DNA from: Steroidobacteraceae bacterium
Lineage (GTDB): Bacteria; Pseudomonadota; Gammaproteobacteria; Steroidobacterales; Steroidobacteraceae
Length of the DNA: 64,000 nt
Assembly: GCA_019634915.1 (NCBI GenBank)
Contig: JAHCAN010000008.1
Coordinates: 33,895-97,894, forward strand
Direction: 5' to 3'
The notes below the pieces were generated by a model. It made no database searches and was not told where the DNA came from. It saw only the letters and a program-made list of their open reading frames with translations. Position numbers and translations under genes: made by a program. Position 1 is the stretch's first letter; each line of letters starts with the position of its first letter. This document shows positions 28,444 to 48,329 of the stretch, piece after piece.

Positions 28444-29872
28444 CGGCCTGCTGATGCCGGTGATTGCGCTGGCGGGCCTGCTCGCGGGCTGCGGCGCGCT
28501 CGTCCCCAGGCTGCCCGAGGCGCAGAGCGACATTCCGGCGCAGTGGCCGCTGCCGCCGACCACTGCGGCGGGCGTCGCGCTGCCAGTTGAGGCCGCGGCG
28601 GAGCCGGACGCGTCCGCCGCCACGGTCGCGGACATCGGCTGGCGCGATTTCTTCGTCGACCCGAAGCTCGAGCAGCTGATCGCACTTGCGCTCGGGAACA
28701 ACCGGGACCTGCGCGTCGCGGTGCTGAACGTCGAGCGTGCGCGCGCGCAGTACCGCATCCAGCGCGCCGACCGCCTGCCGTCGATCGACGTCACCGGTGC
28801 GCTGACGCGCAGCGGCGGCGAGCAGCTTCCCGTCACCGAACAGGCGAGCGTGACCGCCGGCGTCGCCGCCTTCGAGTTCGACCTGTTCGGGCGCGTGCGC
28901 AACCTGACGGTGGCGCAGCTCGAGCGCTATTTCGCGCAGGAGGCCGCACGCCGCGCTGCGCAGCTGTCGCTGGTCGCCGAGATCGCCAACGCCTGGCTCG
29001 CGCTGAGTGCCGACCGCGAACTGCAGCGCGTCGCGCGCGAGGCGCTGACCAACCGCGAACAGGCACTCGCGCTCAACGAGAAGCGCCACGAGCTGGGCGC
29101 CGTGTCGGCGCTCGATGTGAGCCAGGCACAGACCGCGGTCGAGACGGCGCGCACCGACGTGTCGCGCTACGCCGGCCAGGTCGCGCGCGACATCAACGCC
29201 CTGACATTGCTCGTCGGCGCGCCGATCGATCCGGACCTGCTGCCGGACAGCTTCGACCTGCACGTCAGCGGCCTCGGCGCGCTGCCGGCGGGGCTGCCGT
29301 CGGAAGTGCTGCTGCGCCGCCCGGACATCCAGCAGTCCGAGCGGCTGTTGCGCGCGGCGAACGCCAATATCGGCGCGGCACGCGCGGCTTTCTTCCCGTC
29401 GATCCGCCTGACCGGGCAGGTCGGCTATGCCAGTGACGACCTGTCGACCGTGTTCGACAGCGGAACACGCATCTGGAGCTTCTCGCCACAGGTGAGTCTG
29501 CCGATCTTCGAGGGCGGACGGCTGGTCGCGGGGCTCAGGTCGGCCCGGATCGATCGCGACATCGCGCTCGCGCAGTACGAGAAGGCGATCCAGGGCGGCT
29601 TTCGCGAGGTCGCCGACGCGCTGGCGCTGACCCGCACGCTCGCCGAGCAGAAGACCTCGCAGCAGGCACTGGTCGCGGCCGCGACCCGCGCTGACGAGCT
29701 CTCGCGCGTGCGCTACGAAAGCGGCCGGGACAGCTATCTCGTGCTGCTCGATTCGCAGCGCACGCTCTACGCGGCCCAGCAGTCACTGATCGCGACCCAG
29801 CTCGCCGAGCAATCCAATCGCGTGCTGCTCTACAAGGTGCTCGGCGGCGGCTGGCTGGAGGCCGCGCCATGA
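28430..29872 (+). CDS. RND outer-membrane efflux lipoprotein (OprM/NodT family)
   Basis: A 480-residue TolC-like channel of the NodT subfamily. Lipobox LLAGC near residue 20 ([19 protein letters not shown]) predicts a lipid-anchored N-terminus; two outer-membrane-efflux repeats follow, with [27 protein letters not shown] and the typical second-half motif [35 protein letters not shown] 28430 is chosen for the strong GGGAGG eight bases upstream. The stop overlaps the tetR start (ATGATG). Completes the tripartite pump. Confidence 0.94.
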
Positions 29873-30519
29873 TGGCCGCGCAGGCGATGGACGCGAAGCG
29901 CAGGGCGCAGGCGCGCGTCGCCGCGCAGCGCACGCGCATCCTGCAGGCCGCGGAGAAGTGCTTCGTCGAGCGCGGCTTCCACGCCGCGAGCATGGCGACG
30001 ATCGCGCAGACCGCCGCGATGAGCCCGGGCCTGATCTACCGCTACTTCCACAGCAAGAGCGAGATCATCCTCGCGATCATCGAACGCCAGCTCGAGACCG
30101 CGCGCGAACGCATCGGCGCGCTGCATGGCGCGAACGACCTCGCGGCGAGCCTCGCCGACTCGTTTCAAGCGGCGGAGCAGGACGACTGCGAGCAGATCAG
30201 CGCGCCGCTGTTCCTCGAGATGTCTGCCGAGGCGACGCGCGACCCGCAGATCGGTGCCGCGATGCACGCCTTCGACGCGACCGTCCGTGGCGACCTCGCG
30301 GGCGTGCTGACGCGCAGCCGCGAGCGGGGCGGCTACGGCCTGCCGGCACCGCTCGCCGAAGCGCGGGCGCTGATGCTGCTATGCCTCATCGAGGGGCTCA
30401 AGGTGCGCGAGGCGCGCGAGCCGGGGCTCGATCGCGGGCTGCTCGAGACCGCGCTGGCCGACATCCTCGCGATGTTGCTCGCGCCGCTGGCGCCCGGCGG
30501 GGCGGATTTGCGACCATAG
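29869..30519 (+). CDS. TetR family repressor, probable regulator of the efflux operon
   Basis: A 216-residue regulator. The N-terminal helix-turn-helix (ILQAAEKCFVERGFHAASMATIAQTAAMSPGLIYRYFHSKSEI, residues 24-66) is classic TetR; the C-terminal helical domain would hold the ligand pocket. It overlaps the channel gene stop (29869-29872), so it is the last gene of the pump operon and is expected to repress it through the palindrome at 24134. ATG 29869 and ATG 29872 are both possible starts. Confidence 0.9.
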   Translation: MMAAQAMDAKRRAQARVAAQRTRILQAAEKCFVERGFHAASMATIAQTAAMSPGLIYRYFHSKSEIILAIIERQLETARERIGALHGANDLAASLADSFQAAEQDDCEQISAPLFLEMSAEATRDPQIGAAMHAFDATVRGDLAGVLTRSRERGGYGLPAPLAEARALMLLCLIEGLKVREAREPGLDRGLLETALADILAMLLAPLAPGGADLRP

Positions 30520-30528
30520 GCCACAGTC

Positions 30529-30829
30529 GGAAGGGTGCCAGAGTGGTTGAATGGACCGGTCTTGTGAATCGAGCGCTGCCGTCGGAAACGCGGTAGTGGA
30601 TGGAGTCAAAGTCGGCGAAGCCCCTGCGCGAGCGAGGTAACGCCGAGCGAAGCCCGCAAGGGAACGTGTAGAGACTTGACGGCTCCCGCCTAAGGCCCGC
30701 GGGCTAAGGCGATGGCAAAGTCCAGACCCCGAACAGACGCATCGTCGTCTGGTGGCGAAAGCCATCGGGGCATGGAAAACCGGCAACAGGGCAACCTGTT
30801 CGTGGGTTCGAATCCCACCCCTTCCGCCA
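30529..30829 (+). tRNA. tRNA-Ser(UGA) interrupted by an intron
   Basis: Exons 30529-30563 and 30775-30829 give a 90-nt type II tRNA. Acceptor GGAAGGG pairs with CCCTTCC, followed by G and an encoded CCA. The anticodon stem CCGGT/ACCGG encloses the loop CTTGAAA, anticodon TGA. The variable arm is AACAGG-GCAA-CCTGTT, the T arm GTGGG/CCCAC. The exon junction falls after U34, within the anticodon. The unspliced gene cannot fold an anticodon stem, so splicing is required. The 3' end is followed 166 bases later by an integrase gene. Confidence 0.93.
30564..30774 (+). ncRNA. Group I self-splicing intron (IC3-like) in tRNA-Ser
   Basis: A 211-nt intron with no open reading frame. P1: exon CTT (30561-30563) pairs with GAG (30571-30573), giving the required U.G at the 5' splice site. 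P2: CGCTGCC (30574-30580) with GGTAGTG (30592-30598). P3: GGAGTC (30602-30607) with GGCTCC (30680-30685). P7 and core: GTGTAGAGACTTGACGG (30666-30682) with AAAGTCC (30717-30723). The intron ends in G (30774) before exon base G. The layout and several strings closely follow, from memory, the Azoarcus tRNA-Ile intron, with compensatory changes in P3 and P7. Confidence 0.88.
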
Positions 30830-30955
30830 ATTGCCAATCTCACGCCGGCTCAGGCGATACGGGAAATGTTGAAAATGCCGTGAAACTCAGGGTTTTACGG
30901 TCTCACAGCGTATCCCAAGCTCTCGGTATGTCTCAACCAGGCGAGGGTACTTTTG

Positions 30956-30990
30956 AGGGTATCAGCGCCGTTGGCATCGGGAGATACCCT
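30956..30990. repeat. Inverted repeat ahead of the integrase start
   Basis: AGGGTATC (30956-30963) and GATACCCT (30983-30990) separated by 19 bases, ending 4 bases before the integrase ATG; a further GAGGGTAC lies at 30943-30950. Placement suggests integrase or excisionase arm sites, or an operator for int. Confidence 0.45.
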
Positions 30991-30994
30991 AAAA

Positions 30995-32170
30995 ATGCTT
31001 ACGGACAGCAAGGTTCGTTCGGCCAGATCAGCAGACCGCCCGCTCAAGCTCTTCGACTCTCGCGGCTTGTATCTGCAGGTGATGCCGAACGGCGGTCGCT
31101 ACTGGCGCTTCAACTACCAGTTCAATGGCAAGTACAGGACGCTGGCACTGGGAACGTATCCCGACGTGTCGCTGGCGAGAGCCAGGGAGCGCCACTACGA
31201 GGCACGGCGGGAGCTCGCCGAGGGTATCGACCCCGGCGCGGCCAAGCAGGCTCTCAGCCGGGATTTTGAAACCGTAGCACGTGCCTGGCTAGCCCACTGG
31301 CGTCCGGGCCGGTCAGAACGGTACGCGGACTATGTGGTATCCCGGCTGGAGGGCGACATCTTTCCAGACATCGGCGCCCGGCCAGTGGGGGAACTGACCG
31401 CCGCCGAGTTCCGGGATGCCGTGCGCAAGGTGGAACGGCGTGGCGCATCGGAGATTGCGCGGCGATTGCTGCAGAACTGCGGCCAGATCATGCGTTACGC
31501 CGTCGCCAACGACCTTTCGCCGCGCAACCCGGTAGCGGAGGTGAAGCCCTCCGACATCCTCAAGGCCCGCAAGAAGCGCAACTACCCGCGAGTGAGCGCG
31601 AGGGAACTCCCCAATCTGCTACGTGCCATCGACAGCTACGCGGGCGGCGAGCATACGCGCATGGCCCTGCAGCTGATGGCGCTGACCTTCGTGCGGACCT
31701 CGGAGCTGATTGGTGCGCGCTGGCCGGAGTTCGATCTCAAGGAATCCCGTTGGGACATTCCAGCCGAGCGGATGAAAATGAAGACGCTCCATGTCGTCGC
31801 CCTGAGCACGCAGGCCACGGCAATCCTCGAACGGCTCCAGGCGATTTCATTCGACCGGGAGTTCGTATTCCCCGGCGATCTGAATCCCCACAAACCCATG
31901 AGCAACAACACACTGCTGTTCGCGCTGTACCGGATGGGTTACCGGAGCCGAATGACCGGACACGGGTTCCGAGGCGTGGCCTCCACCATCCTCCACGAGC
32001 AGGGTTGGCCGCATGAACACATAGAGCTGCAGCTGGCTCATCAGGAGCGCAATGACGTCAGTGCCGCCTACAACCATGCCCTTTATCTGAAGCCGCGCGC
32101 CGAGATGATGCAGGCGTGGGCGGACCATCTCGACCGTTTGCGAGTTCACGACGGAGAAGCGGGTCAGTAA
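30995..32170 (+). CDS. Tyrosine recombinase (P4-type integrase)
   Basis: A 391-residue phage-type integrase. The N-terminal DUF4102 arm-binding domain (MLTDSKVRSARSADRPLKLFDSRGLYLQV) is followed by a SAM-like core-binding domain and the catalytic domain with Arg234 (RTSELIGARW), His323 and Arg326 (HGFRGVAS), His349 (LAHQER) and Tyr359 (AAYNHALYL). All five catalytic residues are present, so it may be active. It starts 166 bases after tRNA-Ser, in the direction leading away from it, as in islands integrated at tRNA genes. ATG 30995 is chosen over an upstream ATG that adds 14 non-family residues. Confidence 0.93.
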   Translation: MLTDSKVRSARSADRPLKLFDSRGLYLQVMPNGGRYWRFNYQFNGKYRTLALGTYPDVSLARARERHYEARRELAEGIDPGAAKQALSRDFETVARAWLAHWRPGRSERYADYVVSRLEGDIFPDIGARPVGELTAAEFRDAVRKVERRGASEIARRLLQNCGQIMRYAVANDLSPRNPVAEVKPSDILKARKKRNYPRVSARELPNLLRAIDSYAGGEHTRMALQLMALTFVRTSELIGARWPEFDLKESRWDIPAERMKMKTLHVVALSTQATAILERLQAISFDREFVFPGDLNPHKPMSNNTLLFALYRMGYRSRMTGHGFRGVASTILHEQGWPHEHIELQLAHQERNDVSAAYNHALYLKPRAEMMQAWADHLDRLRVHDGEAGQ

Positions 32171-32218
32171 ACCGCCTGACTTGGAGTCGTACTTGCAGGA
32201 ATGCTCACGCGAAGACTT

Positions 32219-32770
32219 CTATTTCCAAACGGCGCGCGGTGCGAGCGATGTGAATGGGGCCTTCTCCAATCCGTAGAAACCAGCGACGCTGGAACCCCGG
32301 AACGGATGCGCATCTGGCGACTTGTCCGAGGACCAGATCCTATCCATCAAGCAACGCGCCAGGATCTGAAATGCAATGGATCGAAATCTAGTCGGTACCT
32401 GAGACACCGTCGGGAACCAATCGAAATAGTACCTACACTGGTCAAGAACAAACATGTCGACGTACATCGTGGTGCTCTTTGCTTTGTATCGACCTCGCAT
32501 GGAATCCCTTAGAGAAGTGAAATAGGGGTGGCCGTAGATTCCAAGGAGCGAGTTGACCACAAGATTCGGAAGGGGCAAATCGCACGAAAAGCGGGAATCT
32601 TGATCGAACCATGGTGTGGAAATCGCGCGTAGCAGCTCCTCGCTTGCGAGTTTCCAGTGCCCTTCGACAATCTTATCCAGCAACGCTGCCGACTTGTTCA
32701 GGTCAAGCGCATTCTGAGCGATAAAAGAGAGGTTCCCGAGATGCTGGCCCAAAGGATCTGCGGGCGTCAG
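32219..32770 (-). pseudogene. 3' part of an unknown island gene, cut by IS3
   Basis: About 180 codons of an unrecognised protein read from the IS3 left end to a stop at 32219. The first 14 residues of the open frame (MRCPRKRVNSTL..) are IS3 terminal sequence, so the true N-terminus is lost. The remainder (QHLGNLSFIAQNALDLNKSAALLDKIVEGHWKLASEELL...; TMYVDMFVLDQCRYYFDWF) has no membrane segment, P-loop or metal motif that I can see. It has moderate GC, unlike the core genes. It could be the 3' end of the same transcription unit, or even the same gene, as the truncated ATPase on the far side of the two IS elements. Confidence 0.6.
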
Positions 32771-32826
32771 TGTGGAGTTGACCCGTTTTCGTGGACACCT
32801 CACCGTTGGAGATGGAGGAGTTCACG

Positions 32827-33138
32827 ATGGCGGACAAGACGATCCGGTACACGCCGGAGTTCAAGAAGCAGATGGTCGGTCTTGTGCGGGCCGGGCGCAG
32901 GCCCGCGGCCCTGTCCAAGGAGTTTGGGCCCTCGGCCTGGACGATTGGTTTGTGGGTCAAGCAGGCCGCGCGTGATGCCGGGGACGGCGACGGCGGCCTG
33001 AGCAGCGCCGAGCGCGAGGAGCTGCGCCGCCTGCGGCGCGAGAACCGGCAGCTGAGGGAGGACCGAGAGATCCTCTCAAAAGCCGCGGCCTGGTTCGCGA
33101 CGGAGAAGGCGCCTACGAAGCGCTCTTCGGATTCGTGA
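32827..33138 (+). CDS. IS3-family transposase OrfA
   Basis: A 103-residue DNA-binding subunit: a helix-turn-helix (RYTPEFKKQMVGLVRAGRRPAALSKEFGPSAWTIGLWVKQA) and a leucine-zipper-like C-terminal coiled coil (EREELRRLRRENRQLREDREIL). The start ATG 32827 follows GGAGGAG. The stop (TGA 33136-33138) overlaps the orfB GTG by 4 bases, the arrangement from which IS3 elements make a fused OrfAB transposase. Confidence 0.9.
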   Translation: MADKTIRYTPEFKKQMVGLVRAGRRPAALSKEFGPSAWTIGLWVKQAARDAGDGDGGLSSAEREELRRLRRENRQLREDREILSKAAAWFATEKAPTKRSSDS

Positions 33139-34046
33139 AGGCGAACCAGGCCACCCATGCAGTGGGCCGCATGTGCTACCTGCTGGGCATTTCCAGAGCC
33201 GGGTTCTACGCTTGGCAGGATCGTCCGATGTGCCAGCGACGGCGCGTCGATCTGATGCTCACGGGCAAGATCGCCGCCATCCACCGCCGCTCGCGCGACA
33301 CTTACGGATCCCCGAGCATCCATGCCGAGTTGGCGGACGACCACGGCATCCATGTGGGTCGCAAGCGCGTGGCCCGGCTGATGCGCCAGAACGGCATCCG
33401 CGGCGCCACGCTGCGCAAATACGTTGTGACCACGCAGAGCGATCCAGCGGCCGCAAAGCCGATCGATCTGGTGGAGCGGCGGTTCTTTTCCGACGCACCG
33501 GACCAGTTGTGGGTTGCGGACATGACCTACATCCCGACGTGGTCGGGCCTGGCGATGGTGCTGGACGTGTACTCGCGCAAGATCGTCGGCTGGGCGATGG
33601 ACACGAACATGCGCACGGAGCTGATCCTGGACGCCCTGCAGATGGCGGTCACACAGCGCCAGCCGCGAGGCGTCATTCATCACTCGGACCGCGGGTCGCA
33701 ATATACGAGCTACGCCTTCGGCAAGCGCTGCCAGGAAGCCGGCATCATGCCGTCGATGGGGTCGGTCGGGGATGCCTACGACAACGCGATGGCCGAGAGC
33801 TTCTTTGCCACGCTGGAGCGCGAGGTGCTTAACCGTCGGCGCTTTCGCAGCCAGGCCGAAGCGCGGATGGCCATCTTCGAGTGGATCGAAGGCTGGTACA
33901 ACCCGCATCGGCGGCACTCGGGACTGGGCTACCGCTCGCCGGTCAACTACGAGCGTTCCCACTGGCAATCCCGGGCAAGAATGGCAGAGCTTCTGCCGCC
34001 TTCGGCGCCAGACTCACTGTCGAGTAAGATCAGCAAGGCAGCATGA
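33135..34046 (+). CDS. IS3-family transposase OrfB (DDE integrase)
   Basis: A 303-residue integrase-core protein: HTH_21 region (YGSPSIHAELADDHGIHVGRKRVARLM) and rve domain with catalytic Asp in WVADMTYIPT, Asp in HHSDRGSQYTS and Glu in DNAMAESFFATLE, so the triad is intact. It reads from GTG 33135 in the -1 frame relative to orfA. Complete coding, although the element's right end is missing, so transposition of this copy is doubtful. Confidence 0.92.
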   Translation: MKANQATHAVGRMCYLLGISRAGFYAWQDRPMCQRRRVDLMLTGKIAAIHRRSRDTYGSPSIHAELADDHGIHVGRKRVARLMRQNGIRGATLRKYVVTTQSDPAAAKPIDLVERRFFSDAPDQLWVADMTYIPTWSGLAMVLDVYSRKIVGWAMDTNMRTELILDALQMAVTQRQPRGVIHHSDRGSQYTSYAFGKRCQEAGIMPSMGSVGDAYDNAMAESFFATLEREVLNRRRFRSQAEARMAIFEWIEGWYNPHRRHSGLGYRSPVNYERSHWQSRARMAELLPPSAPDSLSSKISKAA

Positions 34047-34065
34047 AGAGACGATCACAGGACTA

Positions 34066-34100
34066 CTGAAAGTCTCATAAATAATGCAATAATGACCCCC
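34066..34100. repeat. IS630 left terminal inverted repeat
   Basis: Begins CTGAAAGTCTCATAAATAAT; matches the right end at about 27 of the first 31 positions, with differences clustered at positions 5-6 and beyond 27. Confidence 0.8.
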
Positions 34101-34122
34101 TGTCCTTCTGGAGAGAACAGGC

Positions 34123-35147
34123 ATGGCAAGACCGAAGGGATCGGCCGAGGTGATCGAAGCGCGGCGCCGTCAGGCGCTGCGCCTGCTGGATCAGGGCTAC
34201 TCGCTGGGTGAGGTCGGGCGCATGCTCGGCTGCGCGCCCAGCTCGGTGATGCGCTGGCGCGATGCCCGAACACAAGGCGGCAAGCAGGCCCTGAAGGTCC
34301 GACCGACGCCGGGGCGACCGCCGCAGCTGAAGGCCCGGGATCGCCAGCGCATCGTCGGACGGCTGCTCAAGGGAGCCATGGCCAATGGCTTTGCCACCGA
34401 GCTGTGGACCACTGCCCGAGTGGCCCAGGTCATTCACAAGTGCTGTGGAATCGGCTATCACAAGAGTCACGTCGCCCGCCTGCTGCATGAGCTGGGCTTC
34501 AGTTGCCAGAAGCCCGAGCGCCGGGCGCTGGAGCGCGATGAGGCCCGTATCGAACAGTGGAAGCGCAAGGACTGGCCGCGGGTAAAAAAAACGCTGCGCG
34601 GCTGGGTGCCCACATCGTCTTTGTCGACGAATCCGGCTTCATGCTGATCCCGACTGTCCGGCGCACCTGGGCGCCCTGCGGCCAGACTCCGATCATTCGA
34701 CATCGCTACAACCATGCGCGCATCTCGGTGATCGGCGGCCTGACAGTCAGTCCCGGCAGGCGCCGACTGGGACTGTACTTCCGGCCCCATGCCGGCAACA
34801 TCTCGCGCGATGAGGTCGAAGACTTCCTCTGGCACCTGCTGCGCCACCTGCGCGGCCAGGTCATCGTTGTCTGGGATGGGGCCTCGATCCATCGGCCCAA
34901 AGGGTTGCAAGACTTGCTGGCCCGGTATCCGCGCCTGCATCTGGAGAAGCTGCCCGCCTACGCGCCGCAACTGAACCCCATCGAAGCGCTGTGGCATGCG
35001 GCCAAGCTGCCGCTGGCCAATGGCCAGCCCGACGACATCCCCGAACTCGGACGGGATGTGGTGACAAGCCTGCGAACCCTGCGCGCATCCCAGCCCATCC
35101 TCAGGGGTTGCATCCGTCAGTCTGATCTGACTATCCATTTACCCTGA
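34123..35147 (+). CDS. IS630-family transposase, -1 frameshift at an A8 run
   Basis: Two overlapping frames (34123-34647 and 34557-35147) encode one transposase of about 340 residues. The first holds the helix-turn-helix (LLDQGYSLGEVGRMLGCAPSSVMRWRDAR) and a winged-helix part; the second holds the DDE domain with Asp in FVDESGF, Asp in VVWDGASIH and Glu in LNPIEALW. They join at eight A residues (34584-34591) after KDWPRVKK, a typical slippery site, so a programmed -1 frameshift is likely rather than a mutation. All catalytic residues survive. Confidence 0.85.
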
Positions 35148-36027
35148 ATATTGCATTAATTATGAGACGCTCAGTAAGCGACAGCGTCGAGGGAACATCT
35201 GTGGCGACCAGATCCAAGCGGCGACAGATTCCACGGCAAAAATCCTGCATCAGGTGCGGGCTTCCGATCGCCTCGTCAGCCAATCTGCTGCTTACATCGT
35301 CGGAGAGCGCGTAATTGAGAAGGCCAAATCCAGTCTTGGAGATGAATACCAACTCGTCGTGCTCCCACATGGGAATCTGAATGGGAGAGATTCGTCCTGT
35401 CATCTCCTTCTCAACCTTCAACGCATCATATCGGCGATGTGGAATCGCGATAATGGCGGCCGGCAGCCCGTCGAAGATGAGCGGCTTAAGCGCGCGAACA
35501 ATGCTTCCCTGCATGTCCTTTGGCAGATAGTGGAAGTCGTCGATCACCAGAGCGCGCTTTGATTCCTTCAGCCCTCCTAGCGCTGCAACCCTCGCGGAGA
35601 CAGTTCGAGATCCGGAGCTTCCCGACGCCTTTCCTCTCTCGTGGGCAACAGCGGCTTCACCTTCAACTTTAGCCACGAAGATACTCCCCGTGGCTCCCAC
35701 CTTTACTTCGCCACCCGTGGTCGAGCTCCTCTCTTCGTTGCGCTCTGTCGTTTGGAAGATATCGAGCTGCTCAAGAATGGTTTGCCAGAAGTCATCTTCC
35801 TCACTAACAGTTCCTCCGTCGATCCAAATCGCACTTTCCGGAGGCAAGACTCGTCTTGTCAAAACCGTCTTCCCTGATTTTGTTTGACCTGTAACGGTAA
35901 CTAGCTTGCACAAGTTCTCCGTGACCTCTCCAAGCCGCTTCTCCAAACGCAATTCAGTGCGCGGATTGTAGGTGTGCCGTGGGAAGCCCCCCGGGACGAA
36001 GATGTCTTGGTAACGCATTACTGTCAT
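35131..36027 (-). pseudogene. P-loop ATPase of unknown function, 3' end replaced by IS630
   Basis: About 285 native codons followed by 12 codons read through the IS630 end to TAG at 35131. An N-terminal segment YQDIFVPGGFPRHTYNPR precedes Walker A GQTKSGKT and a Walker B-like LVIDDFHYLP, a layout of small STAND/AAA-type ATPases. There is no membrane segment. Start ATG 36027 or 36018. The C-terminal part is missing: the frame is cut at SLSLTE. GC is clearly below that of the core genes. Function is unknown; ATPases of this look occur in islands together with an effector gene, so a defence or stability role is possible, but this is only a guess. Confidence 0.65.
35140..35174. repeat. IS630 right terminal inverted repeat
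   Basis: Reverse complement begins CTGAGCGTCTCATAATTAAT; partner of the repeat at 34066. It contributes the last 11-12 codons and the stop of the truncated ATPase on the minus strand. Confidence 0.8.
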
Positions 36028-36096
36028 ACCTGCGCGTCCTTGCTGAAGTGCGGTCTAACGGTTGAGCTGAGCGGCGCGCGCGCCGAGGTTCGGGCT

Positions 36097-36798
36097 TGGC
36101 ACTTTATCTCTCACGCGTCCGCTCCGAGCACACCGGCGGTATCCGCCGAGCACTCGCCAGGCGCGCTGGCGCCGTTCGATATCGTGCACGCCAAGATACG
36201 CACCGAGGGCAATGTGGCGGTGTTCCACATGGCGGTGTCGGGCCGCGCCGGCGAAATCACGCCGACCGCGACCGGGCAATTCGCCGGCAGCGAGGTGTTC
36301 TCCTACGTCTGGCCGACGACCATCGATCCCTACGAAGTGGGCTTCGAGCGTGGCACCGGCATCCTTGCCCTCGCCGTGACCGCGCATCCGGATTTCGACG
36401 ACACGCCGCTCTTCGATGAATCACGGGACGGCAACCTGGCGAATGACGGCGGGCTCTGGCACATGCACTGGGTCGTGCTGGGTCCCGATCCCGTGTGCGG
36501 CGCGGGCGCGCTCAAGGTGATCGACATCGCGGAAGGCACGCGGCCGCGCCTGCCGGCGACCTGGCCCGGTGCGCCGATCCTGATCGACAGCCCCGGCTGG
36601 CAGCCGCTGCTGGATCGCGATACGGTCGAGGTGCGGGTGCCGTTTTCGGACATCGCGGTCGTCAGTGCGGCGGGGTTCGACGGCGTTACGGCGGGCCTGC
36701 GCGTGAACGCCAGCGCCCACGCGCCGCTGCTGTGCGTCGCGAATGTGTTCGACGTGGCATCGGGCGATCTCAGCCTGCCCGGGCGAGTCAACCAGTAA
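36097..36798 (+). pseudogene. 5'-truncated conserved protein at the island's right edge
   Basis: An open frame with no credible start codon or signal peptide: native-looking sequence begins near HASAPSTPAVSAEH and runs to a stop at 36798. The body (FDIVHAKIRTEGNVAVFHMAVSG, TTIDPYEVGFERGTGILALAVTAHPDFDDTPL, HMHWVVLGPDPVCGAGALKV, FDGVTAGLRVNASAHAPLLCV) looks like a complete secreted beta-rich domain of an uncharacterised family. High GC, core-like. The frame is open into the island but the sequence changes character there, so I infer the 5' end was removed at the island junction. The missing part is not seen on the left side of the island. Confidence 0.55.
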
Positions 36799-36868
36799 CT
36801 TTAGGCTGCCGCCGGCGCCGGCATTCGACGATGCCGCGCCGGCGGTGGCGCAGGATCAGGGAGCGAAG

Positions 36869-37078
36869 ATGCCCGCCCTCGTGGCCGCGCCCGCCTGGCG
36901 CACGACCCGCTGGTTCAATGTGCCGGCACGGCTGGCGCTCGCCGATCTACGCGGGCGCGTCGTCTGCGTGTGCGCTTTCCAGGCCGAGATCATGGCGTTG
37001 ATTGGCGAGCGCGTGCAGGTCGTGCCTGCCGGTGAGGCCGTCCCGGCCGGTGTCTGCACACCTGGCGGTTGTACCTGA
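36869..37078 (+). pseudogene. Redoxin-family remnant with internal deletion
   Basis: A 69-codon frame. The first half (APAWRTTRWFNVPARLALADLRGRVVCVCAFQ) matches the N-terminus of thioredoxin-fold redoxins of the type WxTxxWFN...LADLRGRVVxVxAFQMLCPGC. The active-site LCPGC that should follow is absent; instead the frame jumps to what resembles the C-terminal end of the same family (EIMALIGERVQVVP...GVCTPGGCT). I read this as an in-frame deletion of the catalytic core. It has a good ribosome binding site (AGGGAG) and lies downstream of the truncated gene, perhaps its former operon partner. Confidence 0.5.
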
Positions 37079-37146
37079 CGGGGGCATTTCGGGAGCTGCG
37101 CACGAGCGCCAGCGGCGCGATACTGCACCGGTAAGGAGTTGCTCCG

Positions 37147-37749
37147 ATGAAACACCTGCTGCGTTCCTCCGTTGTGGTTGCCGCCCTCGCGTCGTGTGCC
37201 GCGATGCTCGCCGGTGGTTGTGCGACGACGCCGGAGCGTCCCCAGACGATGCGCGATCCCCAGGCGGATTTCAGCACGTACAGGACTTTTGGCTGGTACC
37301 GGCCGCCGGGCGACGATGGCGCCGCGAAACCCCACTCGATCGTCGACGGCTACGTTCGTACGGCGATCGGGAACGAACTGACGGGCAAGGGCTATGTTGA
37401 GGTCGCCGCGGGCGCGACGCCGGACCTGAGCGTCGCATACGAAACCGCGAGCGACGAGAAGCTCAAGAGCAATCCGTTCCGGGTCGGCGTCGGGGTCGGC
37501 AGCTTCGGCCGCAACGTGGGCGGTAGCGTCGGCGTCGGCAGTCCCGGCGTCAGGAACGTCAGGGAAGGGTCGCTCGTCGTGCACGCCATCGACCACGCGC
37601 GTGACATCGAGATTTGGCGCGGCAGCATTGCGCGCGAGCTCGGCAGGGGCGGCGTCGATGCGGTAACGGTGCAGGCGGCAGTCTCGGAGTTGATGCGCGA
37701 CTTCCCGGCGCGCGGCGGCGACGGCCCTGGCAACGATGGGCGGCAGTGA
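37147..37749 (+). CDS. DUF4136 family lipoprotein
   Basis: A 200-residue protein with a lipoprotein signal peptide (VVVAALASCAAMLAGGC, Cys near residue 25) and a DUF4136-type domain: DFSTYRTFGWYRPP, VRTAIGNELTGKGYVEV, DLSVAYE, and a Gly-rich strand region (FRVGVGVGSFGRNVGGSVGVG) ahead of GSLVVHAIDHARDIEIWRGSI. The function of the family is unknown; it is predicted to be attached to the outer membrane. ATG 37147 follows AAGGAGTT. Stands alone between remnants and a convergent esterase gene. Confidence 0.85.
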   Translation: MKHLLRSSVVVAALASCAAMLAGGCATTPERPQTMRDPQADFSTYRTFGWYRPPGDDGAAKPHSIVDGYVRTAIGNELTGKGYVEVAAGATPDLSVAYETASDEKLKSNPFRVGVGVGSFGRNVGGSVGVGSPGVRNVREGSLVVHAIDHARDIEIWRGSIARELGRGGVDAVTVQAAVSELMRDFPARGGDGPGNDGRQ

Positions 37750-37794
37750 GCGGCGCTGCATCCACGCGTTGAGAATGGCTGATTCCGCGTCGAC

Positions 37795-38730
37795 TCAGGG
37801 CCGTGCCGTCAGGCCGAGGTCGCGGGCGATGCGCTCGCCGATGGAAATGCCGTCCAGTCGCTGCGACGCCTCGCTGAGGTGCTCGATCGAGTGGTCCGCG
37901 CCGGGGTAGACCTGTAGCACGTAACGCCCGCCCGAGGCCTCGAAGAATCTCCTGGCCTGCTCCTGGGACGTGAAGGAGATGTCGGTGACTCCCTTCTCGC
38001 CGTAGCCCCCAGCGATCGGCACGTTCACGTCCTCGGCACCGTGATAGTTCAGGATGGTGTGGCCACGTGCAGCGGGGCAGTCCGGAACTTCGGCCATCAT
38101 CGATCCAGCCAGCGTCGCCACGGTCGTGTAGAGGTGGCTCACGCAGGCCAGTGTCTGCGTCATCATCGCGCCATTGGAATGGCCGACGCCGAAGGTGCGG
38201 GCCGGATCCACGCCGTATTTCTTCTGCAGGTAATGCACGGCGCCGGTGATATAGGCGACGTCATTCACGTTGTCTTCATAAGGCTTGCCGCAGCAGCCCT
38301 TGCCCGCGTTCCAGGCCTTCAGCTGGCGGCCGCCGATTCTCATGGCCGCGCTGCCGTTGAGATAGGCGACGATGAAACCGTGCTTCTCGGCCACACCGTC
38401 GATCTTCAGGTGATCGAGCATGAACTGCGCGTTGCCGCCGCCGCCGTGCAGCGCGACCAGCAGCGCGCGCTCGCCTTCGGGAGGCAGGCGGGAGGGCACG
38501 TAGACCAGCATGTCGCGCCGGCCGAAGGCATCCTCGTGGGTGTTGGCCGTCACCGCCCCGAGGGACTCCTCGCTGACTTTGGCTGCGCGGTTCTCACGCT
38601 GGGTTTCGCGGATCTGTTCGAGCCGCTTCAGGCGCGAGCCGTGGCCCTCGTCCTGCTGCGCGCCGGCCGGCAGGCAGAAGACAGCAGCGCAGGACACCAG
38701 GATGGCAATGCGGGAGGTCCTGGACGGCAT
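37795..38730 (-). CDS. PHB-depolymerase/feruloyl-esterase-like secreted hydrolase
   Basis: A 311-residue alpha/beta hydrolase with a signal peptide (IAILVSCAAVFCLPAGAQ). It has the oxyanion region LLVALHGGGGNAQFML, nucleophile motif GHSNGAM, then the acid near HGAEDVNVPI and His in GADHSIEHL. The WNAGKGCCGKPYEDNVNDVAYI segment with a Cys pair is typical of the LpqC/PHB depolymerase group. Acts outside the cytoplasm on an ester substrate that cannot be specified. ATG 38730 is preferred over an ATG 51 bases upstream because it places the signal peptide at the N-terminus. Confidence 0.85.
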   Translation of the reverse strand: MPSRTSRIAILVSCAAVFCLPAGAQQDEGHGSRLKRLEQIRETQRENRAAKVSEESLGAVTANTHEDAFGRRDMLVYVPSRLPPEGERALLVALHGGGGNAQFMLDHLKIDGVAEKHGFIVAYLNGSAAMRIGGRQLKAWNAGKGCCGKPYEDNVNDVAYITGAVHYLQKKYGVDPARTFGVGHSNGAMMTQTLACVSHLYTTVATLAGSMMAEVPDCPAARGHTILNYHGAEDVNVPIAGGYGEKGVTDISFTSQEQARRFFEASGGRYVLQVYPGADHSIEHLSEASQRLDGISIGERIARDLGLTARP

Positions 38731-38852
38731 GGTCGGCGCCCTCACGGGTTCGTGGCGTTGGCGGATCGTGACGGGATTCAATCACGGGAAGGCTGAACGG
38801 AAGCATAACGGGCCGTTCGGTCCCATTGCGGCATGCGCTGGCTCGCCGCGGC

Positions 38853-40805
38853 TCACCGCGCAGCCTGGCGCTCCCAGCCCGCACGCCGCGCCGCGAGCAG
38901 CGCCTCCCAGCGCGGATCCGCGTGCAGCGGTGCGAGGAACGGCGAGATCTGCAGCTCGGACACGAACTGCCAGCTCCGGGACACCGAGCCGCTGACCACG
39001 GCGCTGGCGGCCGCCGACTGCAGCGAGGCGAAGGCCGCGTCGACGCGCTCCATGCTGGCCTGCAGTTCGGCGATCGTGATGTGCAGCACCCAGTCATCCG
39101 GCCGGGCCTCGGCGCTTGCGGTCAGGTGCGCGAGGATGCTTTCGGCCTGCGCCCGTTCACCGCGAGCCTCGTGGACGAGCGCGATGCACTGGGCGGCCCG
39201 CGGCCCCGGCTGCAGGCCCTCGACCGCGGCGAGCGCCTCATCGCGGCGCCCGTCCAGCAGCAGTGCCTTGCAGAGGAAATTCCTGTTGTCGGCGGAGACG
39301 AGACCCAGATCGTCGGCCTTGCGCAGTTCCGCGGCGGCTTCGTGGTGGCGGCCGGTCGCGAGCAGCAGGGCGCCGAGGATCGCGCGGTTCACCGCCGAGA
39401 CGGGATCGTTCGCGGCGATCTGCATTGCGAGCTCGACGGCATCGGACAGCCGCCCGTCGACCGATGCCTCGGACATCTGCATCGCACGCACCAGCGGATC
39501 GGACGGCTGCAGCCTGATCGCCTCGTGGAAATGGTGGCGTGCCTGCGCGATCTGTCCGGCCCAGAGCAGGTACTGCGCCACGCGCGCGTGCGCCTCGGCG
39601 AGATCGGAGCCGGACTCGAGTGCGCGCAGGGCGGCCTCGTGCCAGCGTTGCGCCTCGTCAGACGCGAGCTGCCTGGCACTCGCCTCGATGTACCAGGTCG
39701 CTGCGAGCCCGGACCACGCGCGTGAGTAGCCGGCATCGAGCCGTGTGGCCTCTTCGAACGACTGCCGCGCGCGCTCGACGTCGGATGCTTGGCGGCGATT
39801 CAGGAAGTAGCGGCCCTGCAGATACTGCTCGTGGGCCGCCGGGTTCGTCGTCCCTCCCTGCGCCGCCAGCCTCTCCGCGCCCGAAAGGCGGATGTCCAGC
39901 GCCGCGGCGATAGCCGTCGCGATCGCGCTCTGCACCTCGAAAACGTCGCGGAGCTCGCGATCGTAGCTGGCGGACCACAGGTGGCCGTTCGTCTTCGCGT
40001 CGATCAGTTGCGCGGTCACGCGGATCCGGTCGCCGGCCTTGCGCACGCTGCCTTCCAGCACGTGGGTCACGCCCAGCCGTTCGCGCACGCGCTGGATGTC
40101 GGCCTTCGCACCGCGAAACGAGAACGAGGACGTGCGCACGATGACGCGCAGGTCCGGGATGCGAACCAGCAGGTTCAGGATCTCCTCGGCCAGGCCGTCC
40201 GCGAAATAGGCCTGGTCCCCGTCCGGGCTCAGGTCGGCGAAAGGCAGCACGGCCAGCGAAGTCGTCTGTGCAGCAGACGGCGCGGCGACATCGTGCTTCG
40301 CGCGCCACGACGGCAGCGCGATGAACGCGGCGAGCGCGACGAGGGCACCGAGCGCGAACAGCGCCGCCCACACCCGCGCGGCCGGTTGCCGGCGCGTCGC
40401 TGCCCGCGCAGGCAGGGTGGGCGGCGCAGTGGGAGTCGTCGGGCCGCGGTGTGCCACGGCGGGCCGATCAGCCGGCTCGACTTTTGCGACGAAGCGGTAG
40501 CCGCGGCCCGGCACGGTGACGATGTAGCGGTGTTCGCCGGCGCGCTCGCCGAGCACGCGCCGCAGCGTGTGGATCGCCTGCGTGAGATTCCCGTCCTCGA
40601 CCACGACGCTCGGCCAGAGCGCCTCCATCAACTCACGCTTCTCGACGAGCTCGCCCGGCCGCTCGACCAGGTAGAGCAGGGCGTCGAAGACTTTCGCGGT
40701 CACCGGCACGGGTTTCGAGTCCGCGCGGGTGACGAGCAGGCGCCGCAGCGCATCGAGCTCGAACTCGCCGAATCGGTAGGAAACTGGGTTGCCCGCGCGG
40801 TCCAT
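38853..40805 (-). CDS. Winged-helix transmembrane regulator with TPR domain (CadC-like)
   Basis: A protein of about 650 residues. An N-terminal OmpR/PhoB-type winged helix (YRFGEFELDALRRLL, AKVFDALLYLVERPGELVEKRELMEALWPSVVVEDGNLTQAIHTLRRVLGE, YIVTVPGRGYRFVA) is followed by a Pro-rich linker, one membrane helix (WAALFALGALVALAAFIALP, about residue 150), a TolB-N/FlgO-like domain (LAVLPFADLSPDGDQAYFADGLAEEILNLL) and about eight TPR-like repeats to the C-terminus. The architecture is common in Xanthomonadales-type genomes as a one-component membrane regulator; its targets are unknown. ATG 40805 is chosen; GTG 40838 would add 11 residues. Divergent from the PD40-like gene. Confidence 0.85.
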   Translation of the reverse strand: MDRAGNPVSYRFGEFELDALRRLLVTRADSKPVPVTAKVFDALLYLVERPGELVEKRELMEALWPSVVVEDGNLTQAIHTLRRVLGERAGEHRYIVTVPGRGYRFVAKVEPADRPAVAHRGPTTPTAPPTLPARAATRRQPAARVWAALFALGALVALAAFIALPSWRAKHDVAAPSAAQTTSLAVLPFADLSPDGDQAYFADGLAEEILNLLVRIPDLRVIVRTSSFSFRGAKADIQRVRERLGVTHVLEGSVRKAGDRIRVTAQLIDAKTNGHLWSASYDRELRDVFEVQSAIATAIAAALDIRLSGAERLAAQGGTTNPAAHEQYLQGRYFLNRRQASDVERARQSFEEATRLDAGYSRAWSGLAATWYIEASARQLASDEAQRWHEAALRALESGSDLAEAHARVAQYLLWAGQIAQARHHFHEAIRLQPSDPLVRAMQMSEASVDGRLSDAVELAMQIAANDPVSAVNRAILGALLLATGRHHEAAAELRKADDLGLVSADNRNFLCKALLLDGRRDEALAAVEGLQPGPRAAQCIALVHEARGERAQAESILAHLTASAEARPDDWVLHITIAELQASMERVDAAFASLQSAAASAVVSGSVSRSWQFVSELQISPFLAPLHADPRWEALLAARRAGWERQAAR

Positions 40806-40947
40806 GACGACTTTTCTTTGAGGAGATTTGAGGACCACCCAATGAGATTTGATCCCGAACGACCCATTCTAGCTGCGGCTGTCGGGCGATGGACCGTCAT
40901 TCGAGCGGTGCCCGGCCTGGGCTCCTGAACCACAAGGAAACAATGAC

Positions 40948-41853
40948 ATGCATCCAGACAATACCTGCGCCGCCCGGGCGGTTTGTGCGCTCGCGTCGGT
41001 GGCTCTCGGGATACTGTCCGCGTCGCCACTGCTCGCGGGCGATGGGCACGGGCATTCGGATCGCGACCATTCCGACCGCGGGCGGTCCGACCATGGGCAC
41101 TCCGGTCATGGGCAGTCCGAATGGAGCACCGCGGTGGCGGTCACGGAGATCAACTCCTCCGCCGGCGACGGTTGCCCGCACGAAGCCGAAGACGGGCTGT
41201 CGATCTTCATCGCCTCGCCCAGGGGTGGCAGCCTCGGCAGCAACGACATCTGGGCGGCGGATCGCGCCAGCATCGACGCGCCGTGGGGAGAGCCGCGCAA
41301 TCTGGGCGAGCCGGTGAACTCGGCCTTCGCGGATTTCTGCCCGACACCCGTGCTGGGGAGATCGCTGTTCTTCGTGTCCGAGCGTCCGGGCGACGGCACC
41401 GGACCGACGCCATGCGGAGGTGGTGACATCTACCTGTCGCGCCAGAGTCCGGCCGGTGGCTGGAGCGAGCCGCAGCTGCTGCCGTGCTGGCCAGATGGTC
41501 CGAATACCCAGGGTGGGGAGCGCAGCCCTTCATATGTGGAGACCTGGTACGGGACCTTCCTCTTCTATTCGACCAACGACACCGGCACGGACCAGGATAT
41601 CTACGTGAGCCAGCTCGGTCGTGACGGCAAATTCGGCCCGGGGCTGCGGCTCGCCGCTCTCTCGCTGGCCGGGTACGACGACCTGATGCCGAACGTGCGC
41701 ATGCGCGAGGAGCGTGCGACGCTGTCCCACGACGGCAAGCGGCTCTACTTCGGCCGCAATGGCGACATCTTCATGAGCCGGCGCCCCGCGCCGGGATATG
41801 CTCACCACTCGAACGCGAGATTGACCGCCAGGCTGCGGCCGGGGCGCGAGTAG
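40948..41853 (+). CDS. PD40/TolB-like exported protein with His-rich N-terminus
   Basis: A 301-residue protein: signal peptide (VCALASVALGILSASPLLAG), then a His/Asp/Ser/Gly-rich stretch (DGHGHSDRDHSDRGRSDHGH) that could bind metal, then WD40/PD40-type beta-propeller repeats (EDGLSIFIASPRGGSLGSNDIWAADR; FFVSERPGDGTG; ATLSHDGKRLYFGRNGDIFMSRR). The last 17 residues are read antisense through the 3' end of the TonB receptor gene (overlap 41802-41853), so the natural C-terminus may be lost. Divergent from the winged-helix/TPR gene, which may regulate it. Confidence 0.7.
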   Translation: MHPDNTCAARAVCALASVALGILSASPLLAGDGHGHSDRDHSDRGRSDHGHSGHGQSEWSTAVAVTEINSSAGDGCPHEAEDGLSIFIASPRGGSLGSNDIWAADRASIDAPWGEPRNLGEPVNSAFADFCPTPVLGRSLFFVSERPGDGTGPTPCGGGDIYLSRQSPAGGWSEPQLLPCWPDGPNTQGGERSPSYVETWYGTFLFYSTNDTGTDQDIYVSQLGRDGKFGPGLRLAALSLAGYDDLMPNVRMREERATLSHDGKRLYFGRNGDIFMSRRPAPGYAHHSNARLTARLRPGRE

Positions 41854-44021
41854 AAGCCGATATTGGCATCCTCTGCGCCGACGCCGCGCACGCTGGACCA
41901 GTCCCAGTAGCGGCGGTCGCGAAGATTGATGACGCCGGCGTTGACGCGCACGCCGTGCCAGGGCTCGGCCCACGCATAGAGATCGAAGCGGACGTAGCCG
42001 GGCGGTGCGAAGAACGGGCCGTTCTCCTGGTCGATGCGGGACTTCTTCTGCGTGCCGACCATCGCGGTCTCCGCGCCCCACAGCCCCGAGCCCGCCTCGT
42101 AGCGCAGGCCGACCGCGAGGCGCGCCGGATCGATGCTGTTGAGCGGCTGCGCGCGGCGCAGGTCGTCGCCCTCGGACCAGGCCAGTGCACCACGCAGCTG
42201 CCAGTGGCCGGCGCCGTCCGCGCGCGCGGGCAACTGCCAGAGCAGATCGGCTTCGACGCCGCGGATACGGGCGCGGTCGCGGTTGATCGACTGGAACACC
42301 AGCAGCCCGGTGCCGGCCTCGACGCCGAGGTTGGCGCGCGATTCGATCAGGTCGCGGTAGCGGTTCTCGTAGAGCGACACGCTGGCGCGCAGCGCGTCGC
42401 CGACATGGCGCCAGCCGAGCTCCAGTCCCTGGCTGCGTTCCGGGCGCAGATCGGGATTGGCGCGCACTTCGTAGTTGTAGACCGGCAGGATCAGGCCGAT
42501 GTTGACGTCGCCGAAGGGAGGAGCGCGAAAGCCGCGCGCGTACTGCACGAACAGGCTGTGGCCGCCGCCCGGCGACCAGCGCAGCGCCAGGCGCGGCGTG
42601 AGCTGCTGTTCGTCGATGTCGACCGGGTTCGCGTCCGGGAAATCCTCGGTGAAGATCGCGTCGGGTTGCGCGCGCAGGCGATACCACTCGGCGCGCAGGC
42701 CGGGGATCAGCGCGAAGTGCCCGCCGAGGCTGATTTCGTCCTGCCAGAACACGGCGAGGCTGTCGGCATCGGTGTTGGGGAAGTCACGGACCGGAAGGGG
42801 CTCGCCGAGCACCAGCGAGCTGCTGGCACCGGTGGCGAGGTTGGTTTCGAGCCCGTCGCGCAGGCCCTCGTAGCGCTGCGTGGCGAGGTCGATGCCGTAG
42901 ACCTGCCAGTGCCGTCCCCAGCGGCCCTCGTTGCGCGACTGGCCGAGCAGTGCGAGACCGATCGCGGTCGCATCGTATTCGAAGCGCCGCCAGCGCAGTG
43001 ATTCGAACGGTGTCGCGCGGTCGGGCAGGCGGTACTGGTCGCTGTCCTGGCGTACCGTGGTGTCCTGCACGTAGAACTGTGCGTCCAGCGATTGCAGCCA
43101 TGCGCGCTGCGGTTCCCACCGGGCCGCGAGGCTCAGGCGGTTACGGCGGTCACGGTCATCGGCGTCGAGACGATAGGTGGTGCTGTAACGCCCGCCGCCG
43201 AAGCGCAGTGAATTGACCGCGGTCTGGCGCTCGCTGCGCTGGGCATCCAGCGCCAGCACGTAACGGCCCGCCTCACCGGCATCGTGCACCAGCTTTGCGA
43301 GCGCGCTGTCACGCTGGTAATCGATGACGTTCGGACCGTCCTCGTCACGCCAGGCACGGTTGCCGGCTTCGTGGCCGCTGCGCCGCCCGAGCACGACCAT
43401 GCCTTGCCAGCGTCCCGACGCATCCTCACCGGCCCAGCTGGCGGCGCGCAGCAGACTGTCGTCCATGCCGTCCCAGCCGGCGCGCGCTCCGAGATGGCGG
43501 CTGCCGCCGCGCGCGAGCAGATCCCCGGGATCGCGGGTGCGGAAGGCGACGACGCCGGCGAGCGCATCGCTGCCGTACAGCGTGGAAGCCGGGCCGCGCA
43601 ATACTTCGATGCGCTCGATCGCTTCGAGATCGACCAGGTCGCGGCCGGCCGAAGCGAACTGGCCGATGCTGTACGCATCGGCAAGCGGGATGTCATCCAC
43701 GAGGATACGGACGCGATTGCCTTCCAGACCGCGGATCGAAAACCCGTTGCTGCCGAAGCGATGGCTGTCGCGCGTGACGTCGATGCCGGGCACGTAGCGG
43801 GTCAGGCCTTCGAGATCGTGCACCAGATGCCGGTCCAGATCCTCGCGCTCGACCTGCGCGACGCTCGCGACCACCTGGCTGAGCGGCTCGGCCGCGCGGC
43901 TCGCGACCACGACGACGGTGTCGAGCGTCGTGGAGTCGGCGCCATCGGCCGTGCTGTCGATGCCGGACTGCGCGACGGCGATGCCGGGAAGGAGCGCGAA
44001 TGGCAGCAGGCGAAGAAGCAT
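41802..44021 (-). CDS. TonB-dependent heme/hemoglobin-type receptor
   Basis: A 739-residue outer-membrane receptor: signal peptide (LLRLLPFALLPGIAVAQ), TonB box near DTVVVVASR, plug domain (GFSIRGLEGNRVRILVDDIPLADAY, EVLRGPASTLYGSDALAGVVAF) and a 22-strand barrel ending in aromatic FEW. The FRAP and NPDL motifs (YARGFRAPPFGDVN ... NPDLRPERSQGLELG) are hallmarks of heme/hemoglobin receptors such as HmuR/ShuA. Divergent from the cd1 nitrite reductase gene, with an FNR/DNR-like box about 60 bases upstream of its start. No hemin ABC transporter is nearby. Confidence 0.85.
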   Translation of the reverse strand: MLLRLLPFALLPGIAVAQSGIDSTADGADSTTLDTVVVVASRAAEPLSQVVASVAQVEREDLDRHLVHDLEGLTRYVPGIDVTRDSHRFGSNGFSIRGLEGNRVRILVDDIPLADAYSIGQFASAGRDLVDLEAIERIEVLRGPASTLYGSDALAGVVAFRTRDPGDLLARGGSRHLGARAGWDGMDDSLLRAASWAGEDASGRWQGMVVLGRRSGHEAGNRAWRDEDGPNVIDYQRDSALAKLVHDAGEAGRYVLALDAQRSERQTAVNSLRFGGGRYSTTYRLDADDRDRRNRLSLAARWEPQRAWLQSLDAQFYVQDTTVRQDSDQYRLPDRATPFESLRWRRFEYDATAIGLALLGQSRNEGRWGRHWQVYGIDLATQRYEGLRDGLETNLATGASSSLVLGEPLPVRDFPNTDADSLAVFWQDEISLGGHFALIPGLRAEWYRLRAQPDAIFTEDFPDANPVDIDEQQLTPRLALRWSPGGGHSLFVQYARGFRAPPFGDVNIGLILPVYNYEVRANPDLRPERSQGLELGWRHVGDALRASVSLYENRYRDLIESRANLGVEAGTGLLVFQSINRDRARIRGVEADLLWQLPARADGAGHWQLRGALAWSEGDDLRRAQPLNSIDPARLAVGLRYEAGSGLWGAETAMVGTQKKSRIDQENGPFFAPPGYVRFDLYAWAEPWHGVRVNAGVINLRDRRYWDWSSVRGVGAEDANIGFYSRPGRSLAVNLAFEW

Positions 44022-44080
44022 GACGATGCACCGGACGGTGTGAGTATGGTCAATTTTTCAGCAGCGCGTGGCCGATTCCC

Positions 44081-44094
44081 CTGATGTACGTCAA
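44081..44094 (-). promoter_or_regulatory. FNR/DNR-like box facing the heme receptor gene
   Basis: CTGAT-GTAC-GTCAA matches the FNR/CRP-type consensus TTGAT-N4-ATCAA at 8 of 10 positions. Centre about 67 bases upstream of the receptor start codon (44021). Confidence 0.45.
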
Positions 44095-44116
44095 GCAGCA
44101 CAGGGATCGGGCCGGG

Positions 44117-46291
<2,175 letters not shown>

Positions 46292-46321
46292 ACCGGCGGC
46301 GGAGCTGCCGTTCGGAGATCT

Positions 46322-46361
46322 GCCGGCGGGGCCCTGGAAGGGGTCCCGCCGGCTTTCTTTT
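46322..46361 (+). terminator. Rho-independent terminator of nirS-like gene
   Basis: A 13-bp stem GCCGGCGGGGCCC / GGGTCCCGCCGGC (one G.U pair) with loop TGGAA-type, followed by TTTCTTTT, 31 bases after the stop codon. Confidence 0.85.
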
Positions 46362-46405
46362 GGGGCCGATTGCAGCCCTCGCCGCACAAACTCCATTCAG
46401 ACGCC

Positions 46406-46441: not shown

Positions 46442-46447
46442 ATGAAC

Positions 46448-48275: not shown

Positions 48276-48329
48276 GGAAAGATGAGACGCCGTGCGACGG
48301 CGATCGTCAGGAGCCCGGTAAGATGCCGC

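Follow-up and report, generated by a model that had tools for sequence, protein, structure and literature searches.

A group I intron in the anticodon of a tRNA-Ser(UGA) gene belongs to a recurring lineage of serine-tRNA introns

The window analysed here, i.e., the whole 64,000-nt stretch of Steroidobacteraceae DNA, carries on its forward strand a tRNA-Ser(UGA) gene (30529-30829) that is interrupted after U34 by 211 bp (30564-30774). The edges of the insert are exact when compared to intronless sister genes, its group I core covaries, and it is no one-off, i.e., it is a member of a serine-tRNA intron lineage that recurs in other bacteria. From sequence comparison we consider it probable (about 0.9) that 30564-30774 is a small tRNA-type (IC3-like) group I ribozyme located between U34 and G35 within the anticodon of a functional tRNA-Ser(UGA).

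A split tRNA-Ser(UGA) gene with a covarying group I core

The window is part of contig C57 of a 2.78-Mb draft genome (G000; 58 contigs, 78.64% complete), which we compared to six other genomes of the same genus (G001-G006, the sisters). The initial annotation had proposed that the gene folds as a tRNA only when 30564-30774 is removed, which agrees with our results: the gene is missed both by RF00005 and by ARAGORN run without introns. With introns allowed, ARAGORN reports a tRNA-Ser(tga) of 301 bases with a 211-nt intron from gene position 36, i.e., 30564-30774. The spliced 90-mer is again called as tRNA-Ser(tga) with its arms drawn paired, such that removal of the insert yields a cloverleaf with a long variable arm and a UGA anticodon. 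The serine host, the UGA anticodon and the split after U34 named in the initial annotation all hold.

The tRNA-Ser(UGA) gene lies behind an orthologous TetR-like gene in four of the six sisters (G001, G002, G004, G005), while the contigs of G003 and G006 end at the TetR/tRNA site and are unreadable there. It is intact and uninterrupted in G001, G004 and G005. With blastn, the alignments of G001 and G005 to the window run up to 30564 and restart at 30775, and that of G004 likewise restarts at 30775. The sister alignments break at the edges given by ARAGORN, and the coordinates assigned initially are correct.

The intron structure was laid out from the window sequence and comprises P1-P9, P9.1 and the terminal G, including a P3/P7 pseudoknot. 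Pairing was assessed on an alignment of 20 serine-tRNA introns, the window included (21 had been read by then; L152, whose contig ends in the gene, was left out). The features are listed below, all on the forward strand, with the respective evidence from this alignment where available.

29869..30519 (+): TetR-like regulator (type judged by eye); syntenic marker with 65-66% identical orthologues in five of the six sisters
30529..30563 (+): 5' exon of tRNA-Ser(UGA), ending ...CCGGTCTT (U34); from sequence, ARAGORN and the same exon edge in sister genomes
30561..30573 (+): P1, exon CTT (30561-30563) with GAG (30571-30573), U.G at the splice site; U.G in 20/20 serine introns
30564..30774 (+): group I intron (IC3-like), 211 nt, first base G, last base G; from ARAGORN, alignment, sisters and model R1
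30576..30596 (+): P2 hairpin with GAAA loop; both-side changes in 6/8 pairs, 86.3% of cells paired, a figure lowered partly by the window, whose P2 is one base longer and shifted by one position in the alignment
30602..30686 (+): P3, GGAGTC (30602-30607) with GGCTCC (30681-30686); 100% paired, one compensated pair
30612..30646 (+): P4, 30612-30617 with 30641-30646; 97.5% of cells paired, no both-side changes
within 30612..30646 (+): P5, 30623-30625 with 30635-30637; 100% of cells paired, no both-side changes
30647..30667 (+): P6 (30647-30649 with 30665-30667) and its extension with GCAA loop; extension pairs all compensated
30673..30722 (+): P7, GACTT (30673-30677) with AAGTC (30718-30722), pseudoknotted with P3; both-side changes in 3/5 pairs, 100% paired
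30687..30711 (+): P8; 91% paired, one compensated pair
30734..30764 (+): P9.1, 30734-30738 with 30747-30751; both-side changes in 5/5 pairs
30753-30764 (+): P9 hairpin with GAAA loop; both-side changes in 2/4 pairs
30775..30829 (+): 3' exon of tRNA-Ser(UGA), GAAAACCGG...CCGCCA; from sequence, ARAGORN and blastn against the sisters
30953..32170 (+): tyrosine-recombinase integrase, a neighbour outside the intron; Phage_integrase, Phage_int_M and Arm-DNA-bind_3

Altogether, 96.2% of the 1017 cells are paired in the proposed structure, compared to a mean of 83.5% for column shuffles and 26-45% for the structure slid by 1-3 columns; the rows include the window and near-copies, i.e., the cells are not independent. 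Both-side changes are observed in 22 of the 51 pairs, P3 and P7 included. P3, P6 and P7 are each 100% paired with at least one compensated pair; in P6, one pair changes from G-C to C-G in 8/20 introns. Further pair types do not exceed the shuffle level (399/500 as high). The precursor fold has a z-score of -3.19 relative to 100 dinucleotide shuffles, none of which was as low. The intron's terminal G before GAAAAC is invariant (20/20). The alignment and the pairing test hence support the terminal G and the P1, P3 and P7 strands named in the initial annotation, and the paired changes that it described for P3 and P7 are now seen among real relatives, i.e., GACUU/AAGUC vs. GAUCA/UGAUC in P7 and G-C vs. 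A-U in P3. Its identification of the insert as a group I intron is borne out by the covarying core of the 20 serine introns. Introns of subgroup IC3 feature a small P5/P6 domain and GAAA loops on P2 and P9, which by reading of the sequence are present in the window intron. With model R1, the window intron scores 213.3 bits, being itself one of the 20 building rows of that model.

RF00028 gives no match on the window intron, neither at the gathering score nor at E<=1 (551-nt stretch) nor at E<=10 (whole genome). Such a miss had been announced as evidence against a group I intron. We reject it as a refutation, since all six related intron loci (four serine, one Leu(UAA), one CAU-tRNA) stay equally below the gathering score; that is, the expected kind of miss did occur, but it says little about the window. 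Since the gene escapes RF00005, RF00028 and ARAGORN run without introns, a genome like this one may be scored as lacking tRNA-Ser(UGA) despite its split copy.

Self-splicing and its chemistry can be proposed from the structure. In the precursor, exon CUU would pair with the intron's GAG (P1), placing U.G at the cut. A guanosine held in P7 would attack after U34, and the released 5' exon would in turn attack after the terminal G, such that U34 is joined to G35. The expected product would be a 90-nt tRNA with anticodon UGA. An intron of 211 nt does not offer enough space for the usual homing-endonuclease gene.

The protein-spliced tRNA introns of archaea and eukaryotes have the anticodon-loop location in common with the window intron. 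According to PMC4033280, they usually reside at 37/38 and are shorter than 100 nt, whereas the window intron is found at 34/35, spans 211 nt and has a ribozyme core. By its position and length, it does not match an archaeal-type, protein-spliced intron.

The serine-tRNA intron lineage and its possible origin

To survey related loci, we used the pattern of a tRNA-Ser(UGA) exon that is not followed by an intact loop. It yielded 102 stretches in named genomes, all of which were read. The same intron at the same place, recognised by its core motifs, is present in 27 of them, i.e., the search for other tRNA-Ser genes split after U34, as suggested initially, was successful. All 27 intron loci match R1 (19 are in its training set), and 17 stem from records titled as MAGs. 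Among the carriers are Acidithiobacillus, Achromobacter, Pusillimonas, Allopusillimonas, Giesbergeria, Methyloversatilis, Propionivibrio, Sulfuritalea and others.

Of the 75 loci among L082-L183 that lack the intron, 54 form a second class (e.g., L126, L127, L128, L087, L094, L183). Here, the 5' half of a tRNA-Ser(UGA) is followed by a hairpin-rich insert, at most 400 nt upstream of an intact-looking tRNA-Ser(UGA). Usually there is a AAAACCGGC-like stub (49 copies, 36-175 nt after the cut, where the longest may belong to the intact gene). L128 shows five copies 136 bp apart, and many loci of this class are titled betaproteobacterial. No group I core was found in the class, and we rejected its members as introns: at gathering score, Rfam reports for eight of the loci only tRNAs and one group II domain match (L128).

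We also searched 369 genomes of the class, G000 included, with R1, which gives matches at E<=0.001 in 67 of them. For 30 loci from these matches, ARAGORN calls an intron of 150-500 nt in 28. Two of the hosts are Ser(UGA) (the window and G374), the others Leu(UAA), Leu(CAA), Arg(CCU), Arg(UCU), Thr(UGU) and Lys(UUU); four of the 28 were relabelled from their exons against the ARAGORN call (L210, called Phe, and L223, called Ser(cga), to Leu(UAA); L225 and L226 to Thr and Lys, respectively). The related introns in Arg(CCU), Arg(UCU), Thr(UGU) and Lys(UUU) of class relatives are those of L220, L221, L225, L226, L227 and L228 (Thr and Lys by exon reading). Together with Leu(CAA), these share the R1 match with the window but differ in host and mostly have long branches. 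A CAU-tRNA relative (L064) matches R1 at 92.4 bits; its host also differs from that of the window, and it is placed far from the serine set.

With regard to the literature, PMC8450103 describes introns in fMet and Ile2 tRNAs, the latter of Acidovorax and Burkholderia, and PMC4033280 names Leu and fMet hosts, with 37/38 as the usual site. PMC5733544 claims cyanobacterial introns of 22-49 nt that are hosted by Arg, Gly and Lys tRNAs. No bacterial serine tRNA is among the hosts so described. The Azoarcus pre-tRNA-Ile intron and the Acidovorax and Burkholderia Ile2 introns (PMC3984707, PMC8450103) are similar to the window intron in size and core but have another host. Among the open-access papers listed, screened by title and the start of the abstract, we found no bacterial serine-tRNA intron; subscription papers are mostly outside this scope, and a report may exist. 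It is well supported by the sequence comparisons that we deal with a tRNA group I intron of known kind in a serine host not found in open-access print. The initial annotation had called such a host unusual. This holds relative to the open-access literature searched, but not for the sequence data, where the host is recurrent (27/102 pattern loci). The serine lineage adds to the range of tRNAs that host bacterial introns.

A tree was built from 69 introns (208 columns, exons excluded). In this tree, the window intron is one of 12 serine introns that form a starred set (97/92), which lies inside a set of 17 (96/96). The other 11 members of the smaller set come from ten records titled Betaproteobacteria or their genera and from one MAG titled Acidobacteriaceae. 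The nearest row is L151 (Rhodocyclaceae, tRNA-Ser(UGA)) with 83% identity, while the best Leu intron reaches 72.5%; some Acidithiobacillus serine introns (70.6-73%) are no closer to the window intron than that. The branch of the window intron is long (0.25), as would also be expected if the intron were drifting. The parallel to the Azoarcus tRNA-Ile intron drawn initially needs a correction: the nearest relatives are other tRNA-Ser(UGA) introns, and the CAU-tRNA intron L064 shows 75.3% identity over only 146 columns and is distant in the tree.

When the phage array of L265 is set aside, the serine introns of the same tree, 29 in number and including L264 from a viral collection, lie on one side of a branch with support 81/76. 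Of two earlier trees with the same rows, one has 21 serine introns on one side at 55/72 and the other does not. A single origin of the serine introns is thus neither shown nor rejected.

Introns fetched from the window's own family are hosted by Leu or CAU tRNAs, and the sisters' serine gene is intronless where readable. The nesting of the window among mostly betaproteobacterial serine introns suggests a lateral gain. The simplest account would be the acquisition of a betaproteobacterial-type tRNA-Ser(UGA) intron by exchange via the conserved exons. Presence/absence pairs of the serine lineage within one genus are clean material to date intron gains.

It is also conceivable, if improbable, that a tRNA-Leu(UAA) intron reverse-spliced into tRNA-Ser(UGA) and so gave rise to the intron in place. 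Such Leu(UAA) introns are common in the same family, and both tRNAs offer the exon CUU, the intron GAG and the 34/35 site, which is also the site of the cyanobacterial tRNA-Leu(UAA) introns. The Leu(UAA) introns met here resemble the window intron in that they interrupt the gene at 34/35 behind CUU, contain GAG and match R1. Among 16 related introns from relatives, picked among the matches listed, 15 are in Leu and one in a CAU tRNA, the Leu ones mostly with CTT before the cut and GAG in the intron (five ARAGORN Phe calls were reassigned to Leu from the exons). In contrast to these Leu introns, all compared ones being non-cyanobacterial, the window intron has a serine host and groups in the tree with the serine introns in a set of their own (97/92), with L151 well ahead of the best Leu intron in identity (83% vs. 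72.5%). We therefore reject its membership in the tRNA-Leu(UAA) intron lineage. Furthermore, the Leu(UAA) gene of G000 itself is intronless. The AU test against a Leu grouping is marginal (p 0.0455) and confounded, since the Leu introns do not form one clade.

Possible dependence of the genome on the split gene

By RF00005, G000 has 32 tRNAs, of which the serine ones are GGA and GCU only. A second, intact tRNA-Ser(UGA), which the initial annotation had named, together with RNA data showing no spliced product, as an observation that would speak against its reading, was not found in this genome (79%, precisely 78.64%, complete). We ran two patterns for intact tRNA-Ser(UGA) genes on 21 intron-bearing genomes, i.e., G000, G374 and 19 of the 27 named. 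Sister controls were recovered in 2/2 cases by the first and 4/4 by the second pattern. Among the 21, the first pattern reports G465 and G467 only, and both genes are broken in the T loop. The second matches in eight genomes, at places where ARAGORN reads no tRNA. That is, no intact tRNA-Ser(UGA) is found by the two patterns in any of these drafts, where each pattern misses some serine tRNAs.

Four compensated pairs distinguish the window exons from those of G005. By gene numbering, two are in the D stem (10-26, 12-24) and two in the variable arm (50-57, 51-56), which is what one expects of a gene that remains in use. The intron-bearing gene is apparently the sole tRNA-Ser(UGA) of the genome, and splicing would be needed for UCA decoding.

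Given that the assembly is 78.6% complete and the intron branch is long, one may ask whether we are looking at a pseudogene in decay, while the fifth of the genome that is missing from the assembly holds an intact tRNA-Ser(UGA). We regard this as very unlikely: all tRNA arms are paired, with the four compensated pairs relative to G005, the core helices of the intron are maintained, and the other 20 intron-bearing genomes do not show an intact tRNA-Ser(UGA) either. An assembly chimera, i.e., an intron misjoined into the gene within a draft of 58 contigs, can practically be dismissed, because both flanks align to the sisters across the site (about 25 kb up to 30564, then onward from 30775) and the same kind of junction is seen in 27 other loci.

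Mobile elements at tRNA-Ser genes

The serine intron lineage has an interesting link to mobile elements. In the window, an island of about 18 kb (~30830-48780) extends from the tRNA-Ser to the point where synteny with G001 and G006 restarts (~48782-49025). Its ORFs at 32791-34046 are transposase-like by eye, and no repeat of the tRNA 3' end was found in the window as its far boundary. The island adjoins the 3' end of the tRNA and includes the integrase at 30953. Delivery of the intron by this island is disfavoured, since the same integrase start adjoins the intronless tRNA-Ser in G005.

In the sister G002 (contig C6, ~150426-150620; L195), a tRNA-Ser 5' fragment cut just past the anticodon loop is followed by a complete, different tRNA-Ser(UGA). 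This represents one more replacement event at this tRNA site.

G465 has an element of about 2.5 kb (L249 2550-5165) that interrupts its own, intronless tRNA-Ser(UGA) in the T loop. The intron-bearing tRNA-Ser (L249, from 4756) resides inside this element. At the junctions, the 5' part of the tRNA ends with GTGAGTTC, the element has the inverted ends TTATCTTAACCA and TTGGTTTAGATAA (TTATCT.AACCA), GAGTTC occurs as a repeat, and the tRNA then continues with its 3' part GAATCTCACCGCCTCCGCCA. The element encodes a serine resolvase (PF00239) and two short ORFs without Pfam matches. Over 92 residues, the first of these ORFs shares 70% identity with the beginning of the G467 recombinase, and the second is dissimilar to it. 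G467 shows the same left junction (L250, about 7840) next to a tyrosine recombinase (L250:6311-7777, PF00589, 1.3e-18). The same right junction is found after the intron-bearing tRNA on another contig (L111 4741-5190), and we infer that both junctions belong to one element. Recombinase genes or their remnants are thus part of the elements in both genomes.

For 2 of the 27 loci, the intron-bearing tRNA hence looks like a replacement copy within an element that broke the original tRNA. The window gene differs from both in that it is in its ancestral place. Only tentatively, as we hold it to be possible rather than probable, the tRNA-Ser(UGA) intron lineage may have spread as a replacement tRNA: elements would break the T loop of an intronless gene and bring an intron-bearing copy, after which the cell would depend on the ribozyme for UCA decoding. 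The architecture behind this proposed way of spreading is observed in G465, where a single contig holds it, and in G467, where it is divided between two. The window would involve only the last step of such a replacement, i.e., the exon exchange. If the replacement reading is true, an essential tRNA now depends on a mobile ribozyme.

A search of plasmids and annotated phages with the L111 gene returned only partial matches of ~71% identity in 6 plasmid records and none in phages. L265 (IMG/VR, 69.6 kb) carries a phage-type tRNA array with two intron-bearing tRNAs (3427-3740, 2184-2452). These are a tRNA-Ser(UGA), whose group I intron has 224 nt (134.8 bits), and a tRNA-Asn(GUU), whose group I intron has 194 nt (96.2 bits); the array also has two HNH endonuclease genes in between its tRNAs. 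The review PMC3984707 places all phage introns then known in protein genes. L264 (8391-8724) has an intron-bearing tRNA-Ser(UGA) at most 3 kb from phage tail genes, and its intron is the sister of the Achromobacter aloeverae intron in the tree. On L262, a 401-kb IMG/VR contig, we find a tRNA-Ser(UGA) at 5066-5905 that is split by a candidate intron of ~751 nt, with only 14.1 bits for R1 and 14 tRNAs called in the locus. Finally, L263 (1473-2222) shows a tRNA-Ser 5' half followed by an endonuclease-like ORF.
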